From a virus: a stretch of DNA of 35,308 nt. Below the pieces are notes generated by a model. That model was given only the letters and a program-made list of their open reading frames with translations, was not told where the DNA came from and did no database searches. Position numbers and translations under genes: made by a program. The DNA lies in IMG/VR virus record IMGVR_UViG_3300044946_000342, positions 1-35,308 of that record. One strand, given 5' to 3'. The number at the start of each line of letters is the position of its first letter. Position 1 is the first letter of the stretch. This document shows positions 11,603-24,396 of the stretch, piece by piece.

Positions 11603-12591
11603 CGGCGCTTCCCCATCAGCATCGAAGCGGCTACGGCCGCGGCGGCGACAAGTCCCCAATTCGGGATGGATGGAAAGATCGAGCTCGGCTGCTCGAGCCA
11701 CGTCATAGCGCCGGCGGCGGTAAAGCCCGCACTCGGCGCAGCGGTAAGCTGCATCGTGGCCAGATTCTGCGCGACGGCGGACGCGGGAATTACCTGGCCA
11801 GTGGAAACATTCAGATAGTTGCCGCTGCCATCGTTCAGCGGCACCACTTCATTGGTGGCCACAGTAGGCGCCGGCGCGGGAGAAACCGGCGGCGCACTAT
11901 AAACCGGAATGCTTGGCGATGGCGGCGCAGGTGCGGGCGTTGCCGTGGGCTGATTTACCACGCTGGTGGCGCCCGAGGCTGGCGGCGCAGGTGCAGGCGC
12001 GGAAGAAACTACGGAAGATCCAGTGACCACAGCAATCGGCGCCTGCGGCGTGAACGTTTCGAAAATCGGCGCACCGCGCGATGGCAAAAAAACCGGGCTG
12101 CCATCCACCACGCTGATCGGGCCGCCGTCGACTCTGCGGAAGGCCACGCCCATATCGCCGAGCAGGCTGGAAGCTACGTCGCCAGGGGTGAAATAGTGCG
12201 GCGCGTTTTCTGCCAGCGAAAGAAAATCGTCTTCGCCGGTTTGTTTGAAGTCTGCAGGGAAAGATCCGGGCGCTACCGAGGTGCCCGCATGGCGGCGCGT
12301 CTGAAAGCCGCGATAGGTGTGCGCCGCGCCGCTCGCGTTTGGCCGAGGTGGTACTTCTGCCGAGCTGCGATAGATGCCGCGAGGATTCCTCTTCGAAGCG
12401 TGTACCGCATCGTGCGAAGACATGCCATCGCCGCGATCTTGTTCGTAGTCATCTTGAGGAAGGATGGTGGTGCCGGTGGCTTCCGTGTGCGTGAAGCCTT
12501 TGTAGTGGCCGCCGGCCGGGCCGCCGGGCACGGTGAGCCGCCAGCCGGGATACGCGAAATCCACCACGCCTTGATACGCGCCGACTGTCAT
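11599..12591 (-). CDS. Pro/Ala-linker tail-anchored protein (330 aa)
   Basis: ATGA overlap with the transglutaminase-like gene sets the start. The N-terminal 170 residues are globular, with DFAYPGWRLTVPGGPAGG, a KRNPRG motif and FTPGDVASSLLGDMGVAFRRVDG. A long Pro/Ala/Ser linker (about 185-250) follows, then a small domain (VVPLNDGSGNYLNVSTG), WLEQ and a terminal anchor (PNWGLVAAAAVAASMLM) ending GKRR. The layout is like a surface protein held by a C-terminal helix. It likely acts with the transglutaminase-like neighbour in the particle. No specific family is assigned. Confidence 0.8.
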   Translation of the reverse strand: MTVGAYQGVVDFAYPGWRLTVPGGPAGGHYKGFTHTEATGTTILPQDDYEQDRGDGMSSHDAVHASKRNPRGIYRSSAEVPPRPNASGAAHTYRGFQTRRHAGTSVAPGSFPADFKQTGEDDFLSLAENAPHYFTPGDVASSLLGDMGVAFRRVDGGPISVVDGSPVFLPSRGAPIFETFTPQAPIAVVTGSSVVSSAPAPAPPASGATSVVNQPTATPAPAPPSPSIPVYSAPPVSPAPAPTVATNEVVPLNDGSGNYLNVSTGQVIPASAVAQNLATMQLTAAPSAGFTAAGAMTWLEQPSSIFPSIPNWGLVAAAAVAASMLMGKRR

Positions 12592-13790
12592 CGGCGCCTC
12601 ATCAGCATCAACGCGCCGAGCCCGATAGCGGCGATCAAAATCCAGTTTGAGCTGCCGGTTACGGAAACGCCTGGCGTCACTGCGGCGGGATAGCCTGCAG
12701 GCGGCGCGGCACCTGGCGAATACGCCGTCTGGAAAGAAGCGTAAGGTCCGGAAGTGTAGCTAAACGGGCTGGCGGGCTGGCCCGAGGCCGCGCGAATAAT
12801 ATCCGCGATGCCTTGATCCACGGTGGCGATGGTGGACGAAGTGATTTGCCCAGAAGCGGGCGCAGTGGCCGCCGGCGAAGACGATGCAGGCGCGGCCGTT
12901 GTGCCGCCAAGCTGCGCGGCAAGCGCGTTTACCGCGGCTTGCATGCTGGCGGGATCGGCGGGGAAAGGCAGCGCTTGCAGTTGTTCGTTGCTGGCGCCCA
13001 TCGCGATCAGTTGGTTTATGGTGGCGGGATTATAGCCGTTGTTCGTGAGATCGTTGACGGCGCTTTGATCCGGCGGCGTTCCGATGAAAGCCATCGTGCG
13101 GTGGCGGCCCCCCGATCCTATCAACGTAGTGCGATGGCGAGCCACGCTGCCATAGCTTCCCATGCCGCTCACATGCGATTTGAAACGCTGATAGTGCCCG
13201 AGCGTCCCGCCGCCGATGAATGCCAGTTGTCGGGACCGATATCCAGAAAAAGCCCCCGGCAGATCGCCCTGCGAAGAATCCGAAAGGCTCCACCAGCGCG
13301 CGCGTGTGTAGGATGGCGGCGCAACTCCAAATTGCGAATCGCTGCGCGCGGGATCCATGGGGATCCATTGGCCATTGATCTGGCCTTCCACGTAGACGTG
13401 CGAAAATTCGTCGCCGTTCGCGGCTACCGTCATCAGCCGCGCGGGATAGCCGATGGCCATCAGCAGCGTGCCGAGCAGCATGGAGATATCGTCGCAATCG
13501 CCGGCGCGAATCTGCAGCAGCTCCGAAGGCGGATAGAGAGTCTCTTTGTTGACGGGATCTTTCGTGAAACGGATGTTGTTACGCACCCAATTGTAGAGCG
13601 CTTCCGCTTCCGAAGTATCGTCAAAGGCGGGGACGCCGCGCACGATATCTTTGGCGATGCGAAGGATGGAAGGATCGGCGATCGCTTCGTTCACCAAGCT
13701 GCGCATCTGATCGATTGTTTGGGAAACGCCGGCGTCGCCGCCCATCAGCGGCACTCGATAAAGCGGCTGCTGCGGAAACGCGATCGGCAT
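12588..13790 (-). CDS. Transglutaminase-like protein with C-terminal membrane anchor (400 aa)
   Basis: First gene of the late unit. Residues about 40-165 match the transglutaminase-like cysteine protease fold: ALYNWVRNNIRFT leads to the active-site Cys in IRAGDCDD (C99), the His in DEFSHVYVE (H131) and the Asp in WIPMDPAR (D146). Such domains cleave or cross-link amides, here possibly capsid proteins or cell-wall peptide. A Gly/Ser/His-rich region follows, then an Ala/Pro/Ser linker and a terminal hydrophobic helix (NWILIAAIGLGALMLM) ending RRR. It is coupled to the next anchored protein. The catalytic triad is seen. The substrate is unknown. Confidence 0.85.
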   Translation of the reverse strand: MPIAFPQQPLYRVPLMGGDAGVSQTIDQMRSLVNEAIADPSILRIAKDIVRGVPAFDDTSEAEALYNWVRNNIRFTKDPVNKETLYPPSELLQIRAGDCDDISMLLGTLLMAIGYPARLMTVAANGDEFSHVYVEGQINGQWIPMDPARSDSQFGVAPPSYTRARWWSLSDSSQGDLPGAFSGYRSRQLAFIGGGTLGHYQRFKSHVSGMGSYGSVARHRTTLIGSGGRHRTMAFIGTPPDQSAVNDLTNNGYNPATINQLIAMGASNEQLQALPFPADPASMQAAVNALAAQLGGTTAAPASSSPAATAPASGQITSSTIATVDQGIADIIRAASGQPASPFSYTSGPYASFQTAYSPGAAPPAGYPAAVTPGVSVTGSSNWILIAAIGLGALMLMRRR

Positions 13791-19779: not shown

Positions 19780-20238
19780 ATGACAAAATCACCGATACTT
19801 AATTTCCTGTTAGGCGGGATCACTGGCGGGATCCTCGCCACGATCATCGTCCTGCACATTGTCACAAACCAAGTGCAGGCTGGCAACGCTGCGGTAAGCG
19901 CATCGATCGAGAGCGCCAATGCGGAAACGCAGAAGGCCGTCAACACCGCGCAAAAAGTGATTGCCGCGTGGCAGTCTCGCGCGGAAACCTGCGAAGCCAA
20001 GTTCGCCGTGGGCACGATCGTCTACCAGAAGCAGCCACTGGCCAGCTTCCCGATCCTGCATGGACTAGCTGCCTTTAATATCGTCGACGTAGGCGAGTCC
20101 AAGCCGTCGCTCTACATTCCCGCGCAGGTGGATATCTATACGGATCGCACGGATGTGCGCTATCAATGGTTTGACGGCCACACTGGCGAGGCAAAAGCGC
20201 CAGTATTGTTCGCGCATTCGCCCTCGGCGGTCCAATGA
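19780..20238 (+). CDS. Membrane-anchored exported protein (152 aa)
   Basis: AAAGGA precedes the ATG. One N-terminal membrane span (ILNFLLGGITGGILATIIVLHIV) is followed by an Ala/Glu/Gln coiled segment (NAAVSASIESANAETQKAVNTAQKV) and a strand-rich domain (AFNIVDVGESKPSLYIPAQVDIYTD) that would face the periplasm. It has one Cys (AETCEAK). An early-expressed envelope protein could act in superinfection exclusion or membrane remodelling. This is inferred from topology and timing only. It is coupled to the next gene by ATGA. Confidence 0.75.
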   Translation: MTKSPILNFLLGGITGGILATIIVLHIVTNQVQAGNAAVSASIESANAETQKAVNTAQKVIAAWQSRAETCEAKFAVGTIVYQKQPLASFPILHGLAAFNIVDVGESKPSLYIPAQVDIYTDRTDVRYQWFDGHTGEAKAPVLFAHSPSAVQ

Positions 20239-20450
20239 AACGCTGCGTCAAATGCGGATTACCCCAAGACGCTCATCGGGAAGGCGGGCACGCCTTCGCT
20301 TCGATGGACTTACCGGAAGGCCGAACGTGTAGTGACTGCATCCACATTCGATTCTGTACGCAATTCTTAGGCGACGTCGCGAAGAACACGTCGTGTGACT
20401 GGTATCCGATCAGGTTCGTGCTTTCATGCGCGGCGGCTCAGGTGCAATGA
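20235..20450 (+). CDS. Phage-type Cys-rich Zn protein (71 aa)
   Basis: Two Zn sites are visible: RCVKCGLPQDAHREGGH near the N-terminus, and CSDCIHIRFCTQFLG...TSCDWYPIRF in the C-terminal part. The second pattern (CxDC...C...CxxxPxRF) is one I know from small phage and prophage proteins of unknown function. The gene overlaps both neighbours by 4 nt and so is co-translated with the ATPase. It may be an accessory factor for DNA or RNA metabolism. Confidence 0.75.
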   Translation: MKRCVKCGLPQDAHREGGHAFASMDLPEGRTCSDCIHIRFCTQFLGDVAKNTSCDWYPIRFVLSCAAAQVQ

Positions 20451-22321
20451 CGGCAGCGATCCATCTCGGCTATGTGGTGGGCACCGGCGAACCTGTCGAG
20501 ATTCCGCTGCGGCATACCGCCGTGACCGGGCAGACGCAGGAATCCGGCAAAACCACCACGCTCGAGGGGCTGATCTCCCGCTCTGGACTGCAGGCGGTGG
20601 CCTACGTCACCAAGCGCGGCGAATCCAGCTTCCACGTGATGCATCCCATCCCGCCGTACTTCCAGGAACGCGCGGACTGGAAATTCGTGCAATCGCTGCT
20701 CGAGGCGTCCACTACCAGCAAAATGGACTTCAAGCAACCGTGGATTATGCGCGTCTCGGAAGCCGCCAAAACGCTGCAGGATGTGAGGGACAATCTAGAG
20801 CGCTTCCTGAACGGTGTCCGCGATACACGGCCAGTGAAAGCTAAGAAAGGCGCTGAACCAAAGGAACGCTGGGTACAAAAACCAGCCCGCGGCATGAATG
20901 CGGATATGTTTTACGTCCTTACAAAATACCTGGACGATATCATGCCGCAGCTCGGGCAGATGCCGTACACCACGGCGCTCGAGCTCGCGCCCGGGCTGAA
21001 CGTGATGGATCTGCGCGACTACGAATTCCCCCTGCAGGCGCTGGTGATTCGCTCCGTAACAGACCGCATCCGCGAACATCTGGACGGCACGATCAACATT
21101 ATTCCCGAGGCGTGGAAGTTCGCGCCCAAGTTCCGCGGATCGCCGGTGCGCCTGGCGGCGGAAGAGTACGTCCGCGAAGCCGCCGCTATGAAAAACTTTC
21201 TGTGGATCGATTCGCAAGATCTTGCCGGCGTGGCCGATGTGCTGATGCGCCAGGTGGGTGTGTGGCTCTTTGGCGTGCAGCGCGCCACGCGCGAAATCTG
21301 GCGCGCGCTGGAACACATGCCCGAAGGGCTGCCGGCCAAGCGGCCGCGGCCGGCGGATATCGCCACATTGAGCAAAGGCCAGTTTTACGTCTGCTTTGGG
21401 CGAGAGATGCACAAAGTCTACGTACAGCCGGCGTGGATGACGGCGGCACACGCCGAAGCCATCGCCCGCGGCGAGGAAGACGTCGAATCCGCCCGCGACA
21501 TTTTGAAGGAGTACGCCCATGAGCACGTTCAGCGATCCGCTAGTGCGGCCAATGGTAGAAATCCTGCGCGCATGCCCGAAAGTGGTGCAGGAAACGATAG
21601 TAAGTCAGGAGATGAGATCAGCGATCGGCCTGGCGCAACTAGAAGGGATAAGTCAAGAGCAACTGGCAGTGATCGTCACAATGTTAGTGATGATACTGAA
21701 ACGGTAGTCCAAACAAGTTCCCCGCGAGAAATGAGACAGCCCCATGAACCGGCTAGAACTGACACTGACAACGGAAGAGATCGCCAGCCTGCGAAGCCCG
21801 AAGCCGCACGTACAAGCGCTGCTGCGCGTGATGCGCGGCCCGTGGCATCGCATGACGATCCAGAGGAGGAAGCCATCTGGAAAGAAAAATACGAAGGGTT
21901 AAAGTACCAATTCGACATACTCAAACGCTCGTTTAATAATCTAGAGAAACACCATTCGGCGTGCTCTGCTGACAATGGGCACGCCGATCCCGGCATCTTG
22001 CAAGTCACCGCCACGCAGCCAATCATCAAAACAGCCATCGAAAAGCCCGAAGTCCAAGTGATAGTGAAACGTCGTGTAATCGAGATGGATGGCAGTACGG
22101 TGCAGGGCACGATCGCAATCTTGCTCAGCGAGGGATTCTTCGATCAATCACGGAACGCGTCAAGCGTGATTAAGGAACTGCGGCGCCGCGGTCTGTCTTT
22201 CAAAGACGGAACGGTGGCAGCTCGCTGCGGGGAAATCGCCGGCATGGGATTCCTGACACGTGAAGGCAAAGGCGACTATCAAGCTGTCCCCGGTATGAAA
22301 GTCAACGTGGTGGAAGCGTGA
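20447..22321 (+). CDS. HerA/FtsK-type ATPase with linker and winged-helix C-terminus (624 aa)
   Basis: The start at 20447 overlaps the upstream TGA (ATGA). Walker A is GQTQESGKTT (28-37), the Walker-B-like strand is INIIPEAW (about 215-223) with Glu but no Asp, and RGSPVRLAAEE, LWIDSQDLAGV and VGVWLFGVQ follow, as in HerA-like ATPases on plasmid and virus contigs. Residues about 358-486 are a low-complexity polar linker overlapped by two other frames. Then comes a coiled coil (WKEKYEGLKYQFDILKRSFNNL) and a probable winged helix (about 545-624). It could be the genome-packaging motor of a tailless phage or a DNA translocase. Packaging ATPases of small tailless phages are much shorter and lie with structural genes, so the role is open. 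Confidence 0.85.
   Translation: MTAAIHLGYVVGTGEPVEIPLRHTAVTGQTQESGKTTTLEGLISRSGLQAVAYVTKRGESSFHVMHPIPPYFQERADWKFVQSLLEASTTSKMDFKQPWIMRVSEAAKTLQDVRDNLERFLNGVRDTRPVKAKKGAEPKERWVQKPARGMNADMFYVLTKYLDDIMPQLGQMPYTTALELAPGLNVMDLRDYEFPLQALVIRSVTDRIREHLDGTINIIPEAWKFAPKFRGSPVRLAAEEYVREAAAMKNFLWIDSQDLAGVADVLMRQVGVWLFGVQRATREIWRALEHMPEGLPAKRPRPADIATLSKGQFYVCFGREMHKVYVQPAWMTAAHAEAIARGEEDVESARDILKEYAHEHVQRSASAANGRNPARMPESGAGNDSKSGDEISDRPGATRRDKSRATGSDRHNVSDDTETVVQTSSPREMRQPHEPARTDTDNGRDRQPAKPEAARTSAAARDARPVASHDDPEEEAIWKEKYEGLKYQFDILKRSFNNLEKHHSACSADNGHADPGILQVTATQPIIKTAIEKPEVQVIVKRRVIEMDGSTVQGTIAILLSEGFFDQSRNASSVIKELRRRGLSFKDGTVAARCGEIAGMGFLTREGKGDYQAVPGMKVNVVEA
21519..21707 (+). CDS. Out-of-frame small gene inside the ATPase linker (62 aa)
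   Basis: ATG at 21519 has an excellent ribosome site (AAGGAG, 6-7 nt upstream) in the +1 frame of the ATPase gene. The peptide looks real: MSTFSDPLVRPMVEILRACPKV, a helical middle and a hydrophobic C-terminus (LAVIVTMLVMILKR). The ATPase frame over the same bases is low-complexity Ser/Arg/Asp/Gly, as expected when the other frame is the constrained one. No family is recognised. This would be a genuine overprinted gene, or the mark of a fusion of formerly separate genes. Confidence 0.6.
   Translation: MSTFSDPLVRPMVEILRACPKVVQETIVSQEMRSAIGLAQLEGISQEQLAVIVTMLVMILKR
21744..21902 (+). CDS. Second out-of-frame small gene inside the ATPase linker (52 aa)
   Basis: It is in the same +1 frame, 36 nt after the end of the previous small gene. 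It begins MNRELTL-like (MNRLELTLTTEEIASLRSP) with a helical start and ends basic (RRKPSGKKNTKG), with HVQALLRVMRGPWHRM between. Only a weak ribosome site is visible, so translation might depend on coupling to the 62-aa gene. The ATPase frame here (RTDTDNGRDRQPAKPEAART) is low-complexity. Function unknown. Confidence 0.45.
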   Translation: MNRLELTLTTEEIASLRSPKPHVQALLRVMRGPWHRMTIQRRKPSGKKNTKG

Positions 22322-23406: not shown

Positions 23407-24396
23407 ATGGGCAAAACATCGATCGAGTGGACGGACGCATCGTGGAATCCCATCGTGGGCTGCACGGAAGTCTCCCCCGGCTGCGCGAATTGCTACGCCG
23501 CGCGCCTGGCGGCTTCGCGGTTGGCGCATGTTCCAGCGTACAAGGGATTGGCCATCATTCCACCGAACGAAGCCGTACGTGGCCAGCGGCACGTCCGCTG
23601 GACCGGCAAAGTCCGATGGCTCCGCGAACGTCGCGATGAGCCAAAGAGATGGAAAAAAGCGCGCCGCATCTTCGTCTGCGATATGGGCGATCTCTTCCAC
23701 GAAGACGTAAAAGACGAATGGATCGAGCACGTGATGACGGTATTCATGGACTGCAAGCGGCATACGTTCCAGGTGCTCACGAAACGGCCCGAGCGGATGT
23801 TTGCGTGGTTTTCGAAAGAATGGAAAATCCACGGCCATTGGGCGAAGCCGCTGCCCAACGTCTGGCTTGGCGTGAGCGTCGAGAATCAGCACTTTGCCTT
23901 CGAGCGCATCCCACTGCTGCTGGATACGCCGGCGGCTGTACGCTTCCTATCTTGCGAGCCGCTGTTAGGTCCGCTGGATCTCACTTGCAATTTATCTTCG
24001 GATGGCGTGCGTCCTGATGGGATACGGACAAACTTCCTCACTGGTCAGTGGTGGGATCACACCGGATACGAACAAACCAGGAACGAAAACAATCCCCACG
24101 GATTCCCACGCCAGAAACTTGATTGGGTGATCTGTGGCGGAGAGAGCGGGCCGCACGCGCGGCCCATGCATCCGGATTGGGCACGTTCGCTGCGCGATCA
24201 GTGCCAGGCGGCTGGCGTACCGTTCTTTTTCAAACAGTGGGGTGAGTGGGGACCGCCTTTTGCCGAAGGTCCGGAGGAACACATCGGCCCGCAATTTATG
24301 AAGACGGAATCTGGCGATTGGCTTACGAAGATCGGCAAAAAGCTGTCTGGCCGGCTTCTGGACGGGAGGGAATGGAATGAGTTTCCTGGCGTTTAG
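23407..24396 (+). CDS. DUF5131 (phage Gp37/Gp68) family protein (329 aa)
   Basis: AAGAAGGA precedes the ATG. The family signature is unmistakable: IEWTDASWNPIVGC, VSPGCANCYA (three Cys, suggestive of a metal or Fe-S site), RIFVCDMGDLFHEDV, FQVLTKRPERM, WLGVSVEN, RFLSCEPLLGPLDL, DWVICGGESGPHARPMHPDW and PFFFKQWGEW. Length is usual for the family. These proteins are common in phages and have been linked by their Cys motif to radical-SAM-like chemistry, but no activity is established to my knowledge. It lies at the end of the early unit with an ASCH protein, which hints at nucleic-acid modification or host takeover. Confidence 0.92.
   Translation: MGKTSIEWTDASWNPIVGCTEVSPGCANCYAARLAASRLAHVPAYKGLAIIPPNEAVRGQRHVRWTGKVRWLRERRDEPKRWKKARRIFVCDMGDLFHEDVKDEWIEHVMTVFMDCKRHTFQVLTKRPERMFAWFSKEWKIHGHWAKPLPNVWLGVSVENQHFAFERIPLLLDTPAAVRFLSCEPLLGPLDLTCNLSSDGVRPDGIRTNFLTGQWWDHTGYEQTRNENNPHGFPRQKLDWVICGGESGPHARPMHPDWARSLRDQCQAAGVPFFFKQWGEWGPPFAEGPEEHIGPQFMKTESGDWLTKIGKKLSGRLLDGREWNEFPGV

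Follow-up and report, generated by a model that had tools for sequence, protein, structure and literature searches.

The ATPase gene and the reading frames in its linker

The window, that is, the whole stretch of DNA analysed, is the IMG/VR virus record IMGVR_UViG_3300044946_000342 and is 35,308 bases long. Downstream of genes for a DnaB-like helicase and a DNA methyltransferase it carries an ATPase gene, whose frame is free of stop codons from 20426 to 22321 (631 aa). The mechanically called ORF starts at 20426, and the protein is likely to start at the ATG at 20447, where its relatives begin. The features of the gene are as follows (residues numbered from 20447).

20447..21517, + strand: HerA/FtsK-fold ATPase motor domain; 94 relatives align from about 20447
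21506..21511, + strand: AAGGAG, Shine-Dalgarno (SD) site of nested ORF 1, read from the sequence, with a 7-nt spacer
21518..21862, + strand: ATPase-frame linker, predicted disordered (AlphaFold), about 121 aa from ILKEY to WKEKYE
21519..21707, + strand: nested ORF 1, 62 aa, +1 frame; LLR +24.4 nats over the ATPase frame
21744..21902, + strand: nested ORF 2, 52 aa, +1 frame; LLR +10.5; the same ORF is found in L027/L002
21860..22318, + strand: module of coiled coil and winged helix of the ATPase gene (AlphaFold)
about 21860-21970, + strand: predicted coiled coil (AlphaFold helix, residues 472-508)
21864..21869, + strand: AGGAGG ahead of the coiled-coil/winged-helix module, followed by 5 nt and an ATC at 21875 in the ATPase frame
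about 22100-22285, + strand: predicted C-terminal winged helix (AlphaFold, three helices and strands, residues 552-613)

The motor domain is predicted with pLDDT mostly above 90, and the best PDB matches to its structure are HerA (Foldseek, E 3.9e-15). This HerA-like fold, together with the Walker A motif G-Q-T/S-x-x-SGKTT, which is conserved in the motor across relatives, places the protein among the HerA/FtsK ATPases. A profile of the motor reached HerA among PDB sequences only at E 0.018, and searches of the motor in Pfam and PHROG gave no match. The motor fold is common to this ATPase and the HerA-family translocases 9x1m, 4d2i and 7wrw (PDB), at about 13-16% identity, but the ATPase adds to it a disordered linker, a coiled coil and a winged helix. 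The pLDDT of the linker is below 50 over residues 382-469.

Among the neighbours of the ATPase gene are a small Cys-rich ORF just 5' of it, at 20235-20450, which matches phrog_10154 (E 3.8e-16), and a DUF5131/phrog_2045 protein downstream, at 23407-24396. The record also encodes a transglutaminase-like domain protein on the minus strand, at 12588-13790 (Pfam, E 9.5e-15).

The initial annotation had described a 62-aa ORF preceded by AAGGAG, and then a 52-aa ORF, in the +1 frame of the ATPase gene. Both are present, and both lie wholly inside the ATPase coding frame. The AAGGAG of the first is written in the ATPase codons for Leu-Lys-Glu; nested ORF 2 has no clear SD, and the RNA structure examined at the first nested start was nothing unusual. 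The ATPase frame has a G+C content at its three codon positions of 0.65/0.43/0.76 in the motor and of 0.65/0.57/0.41 over 21518-21901, where the +1 frame has a normal coding pattern, 0.59/0.35/0.60 in ORF 1 and 0.55/0.47/0.70 in ORF 2. The ATPase frame thus has its codon-position signature on both flanks and loses it over the nested ORFs, where the +1 frame gains it, and the earlier description of the linker as read through someone else's codons is apt.

Relatives, linker length and the turnover of nested genes

A sequence search with the motor found 23 relatives in IMG/VR, and a profile found 80, most of the 23 again among them. Another 15 motor relatives came from GTDB species genomes, and the analysis covered the 94 sequences whose motor was usable. 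The close relatives all come from metagenome assemblies. The motor matched nothing among annotated phages and plasmids at the limits used, and it is present in two of 399 genomes of one bacterial class.

The motors closest to that of the window are those of L027 (= L002, 89% identity), L029 (= L004, 86%) and L028 (= L003, 85%), and in all three the motor and the winged helix share one frame. L027 has a 45-aa +1 ORF followed by the same 52-aa ORF as the window. L028 has a different +1 ORF, of 75 aa and with a CxxC...HxxxxH motif, which starts at the same site as that of the window; the identical SD site heads different nested ORFs in L027/L002 and L028/L003. L029 has a short ordinary linker and no nested ORF. 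Relatives with a conserved linker in the ATPase frame and stop codons in the +1 frame had been named beforehand as evidence against nested genes; L029/L004 indeed combines an ordinary short linker with +1 stops, but the loci with nested ORFs conserve the +1 frame rather than that of the linker.

In all 79 complete sequences that have the C-terminal module, the window included, it stands in one open frame with the motor, and in none of them are the two encoded by separate genes. A further 13 relatives have the motor alone, their ATPase ending soon after it, and no recognisable winged helix was found in their fetched flanks or in their records, the latter searched with a weak probe. Three sequences, L084 among them, are cut by contig ends. 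The motor-only loci (L030, L031, L034, L042, L075, L080, L087, L088, L091, L094, L096, L098 and L101) group together on the motor tree, as sister to the clade that contains the window. In L063 and L073 (= L015 and L018) the C-terminal part is much longer and looks like three related repeats, which stand in place of the single winged helix. The C-terminal module of the window is 37-42% identical to those of L027 and L028, though the motors are about 90% identical, and this difference may reflect module swapping at the linker.

The linker, measured between two conserved motifs, is 121 aa long in the window, 95 in L027, 69 in L028 and 41 in L029, and the nested ORFs number two, two, one and none, respectively. 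Linker length tracks nested content in the family as a whole (p 6e-6), which suggests that the nested genes came with extra DNA and were not overwritten on an existing linker, although the direction of this change is itself inferred. Parsimony gives seven changes of nested state on the motor tree, a quick tree with some branches open. The nested genes of L044, L047 and L048 are unrelated to one another although the motors are about 90% identical, and L084, L086, L095 and L100 share nested genes in different combinations.

The nested proteins that we searched in Pfam and PHROGs are orphans, with weak hits only, for instance a zinc-finger-like one for L028 (E 0.017). No homologue of the 62-aa ORF 1 was found in Pfam, PHROG, IMG/VR, annotated phages or the relatives' records. 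For two nested families, and likewise for the 52-aa ORF of the window and the 107-aa ORF of L084, the copies found in IMG/VR lie only inside this ATPase gene, and for the nested proteins searched no stand-alone copy was found in IMG/VR, the annotated phages or the relatives' records. The predicted structure of one nested family is two helices, at low confidence. It is their turnover between phages, and turnover only, that points to an accessory role for these proteins, possibly of the host-takeover or counter-defence type.

Coding signal and selection in the two frames

A codon-position model was trained on the motor of each locus and applied to alternative-frame ORFs of at least 40 aa. Of the 86 such ORFs in the +1 frame of the linker, 28 scored above the ATPase frame, 25 of them by more than 5 nats. 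None of the 153 ORFs in control frames did so (linker +2, 0/39; motor +1, 0/50; motor +2, 0/64), and since no control ORF scores above zero, chance is excluded as the source of the coding signature of the window ORFs. Nor is a merely open +1 frame sufficient, because the other 58 linker +1 ORFs have no coding signal. One to three nested +1 ORFs are found in the linker at 21 of about 80 loci, and L084 has three in a row. L056 is counted, its ORF falling slightly below zero only when the upstream extension is included, and L072, with a 40-aa ORF at +0.7, is not. L035, L061 and L072 may contain additional shifted segments; these hold no 40-aa ORF with a clear coding signal and are left out of the count. 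An SD of at least 5 bases precedes 13 of 27 nested ORFs, as compared to 12 of 211 other alternative-frame ORFs (p 6e-8). Antisense ORFs in the linker beat the ATPase frame in 7 of 242 cases, five of the seven belonging to loci with nested ORFs in the above count. In four of the seven the antisense frame outscores the +1 frame over its span as well, and a few loci may therefore have antisense coding.

Homologous nested ORFs were available for comparison in three sets, namely ORF 2 of the window and two other nested families. The nested-frame dN/dS is 0.10 between the window and L027, on four changes only, and 0.26-0.60 in six pairs, whereas the ATPase frame over the same bases gives values of 0.7-2.8 where the ratio is defined, fairly close to those of the third frame. 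In ORF 2 as compared to L027 there are three synonymous changes and one nonsynonymous in the nested frame, and none and three, respectively, in the ATPase frame. The changes fall on ATPase codon position 3 in the motor, whereas in the nested region they fall on position 1, the third position of the nested codons, and this shift has a Fisher p of about 1e-6 to 1e-7 in three pairs and of 0.03 for the window and L027, the pairs sharing sequences and so not being independent. In the high-GC clade the nested genes lack homology, which makes the substitution analysis uninformative there. Where homologues are comparable, it is accordingly the +1 frame that is under purifying selection, and the ATPase frame less so or not at all, the point that the initial annotation had proposed to check. 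Its proposal of two genes nested in one is borne out by the coding signature, the substitution pattern of homologues, the SD enrichment and the recurrence across the family.

The ATPase frame is open through every one of the 19 distinct nested ORFs tested. By synonymous codon resampling the chance of this is 0.03-0.76 per ORF, singly unremarkable, and the joint chance is 5e-11 with the 19 ORFs treated as independent, the figure being the product of the per-ORF probabilities for an all-or-none event. Together with the one open frame in 79 of 79 sequences, this predicts that the host frame is coding as well. In motor genes there are 0.017 stops per codon in the -1 frame and 0.038 in the +1 frame. 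The ATPase frame is the -1 frame of a cassette, the one with the fewest stops, which explains why the cassettes sit in +1.

Probable small genes in a proposed slot of a DNA motor gene

We consider it very likely that the nested ORFs are small +1 accessory genes, internally initiated, in a hypervariable linker slot of a core motor gene. In such a gene a HerA-fold DNA motor would be joined to a winged helix by a disordered linker and a coiled coil, and the linker, tolerating almost any sequence of any length, would serve as the slot. Translation of each nested gene would probably begin internally on the ATPase mRNA, in many cases at an SD written in ATPase codons, and later genes in a row may start by coupling to the preceding one. 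In the ATPase frame the cassette would be read as linker of arbitrary sequence, with no constraint but to stay in phase and without stops. Phages whose motors are nearly identical would gain, lose and exchange such cassettes. On balance we favour a slot dedicated to this purpose, with modular +1 cassettes traded inside the core gene and the gene left unbroken; in this exchange the cassettes would, more probably than otherwise, be a multiple of three long overall and keep the host frame free of stops.

It is conceivable, but in our view unlikely, that the ATPase frame is untranslated through the cassette and that its openness is incidental, the products being a motor cut short, the small proteins and, from a start of its own, a coiled-coil/winged-helix protein. 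Where the window has ATC after the AGGAGG many relatives have GTG or ATG, and in-frame sites of an SD with GTG or ATG are enriched in the relatives' linkers (42 as compared to 22.5 +/- 3.7 expected). The valine codon of the motif is GTG in 26 cases and GTC in 7, as compared to 845:903 in the motors. These figures suggest a short second product from an in-frame internal start, and would suit split products, as would the ATPase frame of the nested region being hardly more constrained in amino acids than the third frame. Against this explanation, the motor runs on into the C-terminal module without an intervening stop in all 79 complete sequences, and the joint chance given above is that of all tested cassettes leaving the frame open. 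The full arrangement of AGGAGG, 5 nt and GTG or ATG, at the place of 21864-21877 in the window with its ATC, is present in 38 of 77 relatives.

It is very improbable that the +1 frames arose by chance as ORFs in a disordered linker of biased composition and that the ATPase frame alone is coding. Disordered linkers are odd in composition, and open +1 frames without a coding signal do occur in them, as the 58 ORFs show. Odd amino-acid content alters ATPase codon positions 1 and 2, however, and what falls is the G+C of position 3, in L020/L103 from 0.95 to about 0.4; moreover, most relatives' linkers have a normal ATPase-frame signature, and selection acts on the +1 frame. With none of the control ORFs carrying a coding signature, we reject this explanation. 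Even less probable is a ribosome that shifts to +1 and back and so builds the +1 segment into the ATPase protein. The +1 segments do share one location, and the ends of many lie in the conserved coiled-coil region, but they have their own start codons, often an SD, and their own stops, and up to three stand in a row. We give next to no credence to the fusion, suggested in the initial annotation, of separate ATPase and DNA-binding genes across small genes by loss of stop codons, and reject it: motor and C-terminal module do evolve separately (about 90% and 37% identity between the window and L027), but the relatives, which were to be checked for separate genes, comprise 79 fused sequences and no split one, and on the tree the nested loci are surrounded by fused genes that lack small ORFs, which make up the majority.

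The nearest precedents are the embedded spanins (PMC6139136) and the in-frame lysin of mycobacteriophage Ms6 (PMC3111421). In Rz/Rz1 of lambda and other embedded spanins a small phage gene with a start of its own lies inside another, in a frame that is shifted, commonly to +1, and such genes are often missed by gene callers (PMC6139136). The nested genes here likewise lie wholly inside another gene, in a shifted frame and with their own start. Rz/Rz1 is, however, one fixed functional pair in lysis, whereas here the host gene is a DNA motor, and the orphans nested in it are unrelated, stand up to three in a row and are exchanged. They are not two-component spanins, the host being a HerA-fold ATPase and no lipobox being seen by eye in the nested sequences. 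In Ms6 the embedded lysA241 is in frame with lysA and arises by internal initiation from a consensus ribosome site (PMC3111421), which resembles the in-frame start before the coiled coil; lysA241 is a shorter form of the same protein, whereas the nested genes here would encode different proteins. Overprinted viral genes in general (reviewed in PMC8227390) likewise yield two proteins from a single stretch of DNA. In classical overprinting a new protein arises on top of an older one, but in the present gene the linker lengthens with the cassette, so that the host frame appears to be the passive reader. We found no description of such a nested slot in a HerA-like ATPase in the open-access literature.

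Most nested genes known in phages are single, fixed cases. Small orphan proteins that differ among near-identical phages are a pattern typical of arms-race genes, and a linker with a shift in codon-position signature offers a simple way to find further nested slots. If the reading given here is true, disordered linkers can serve as free coding space, and phages keep accessory genes where gene callers do not look.
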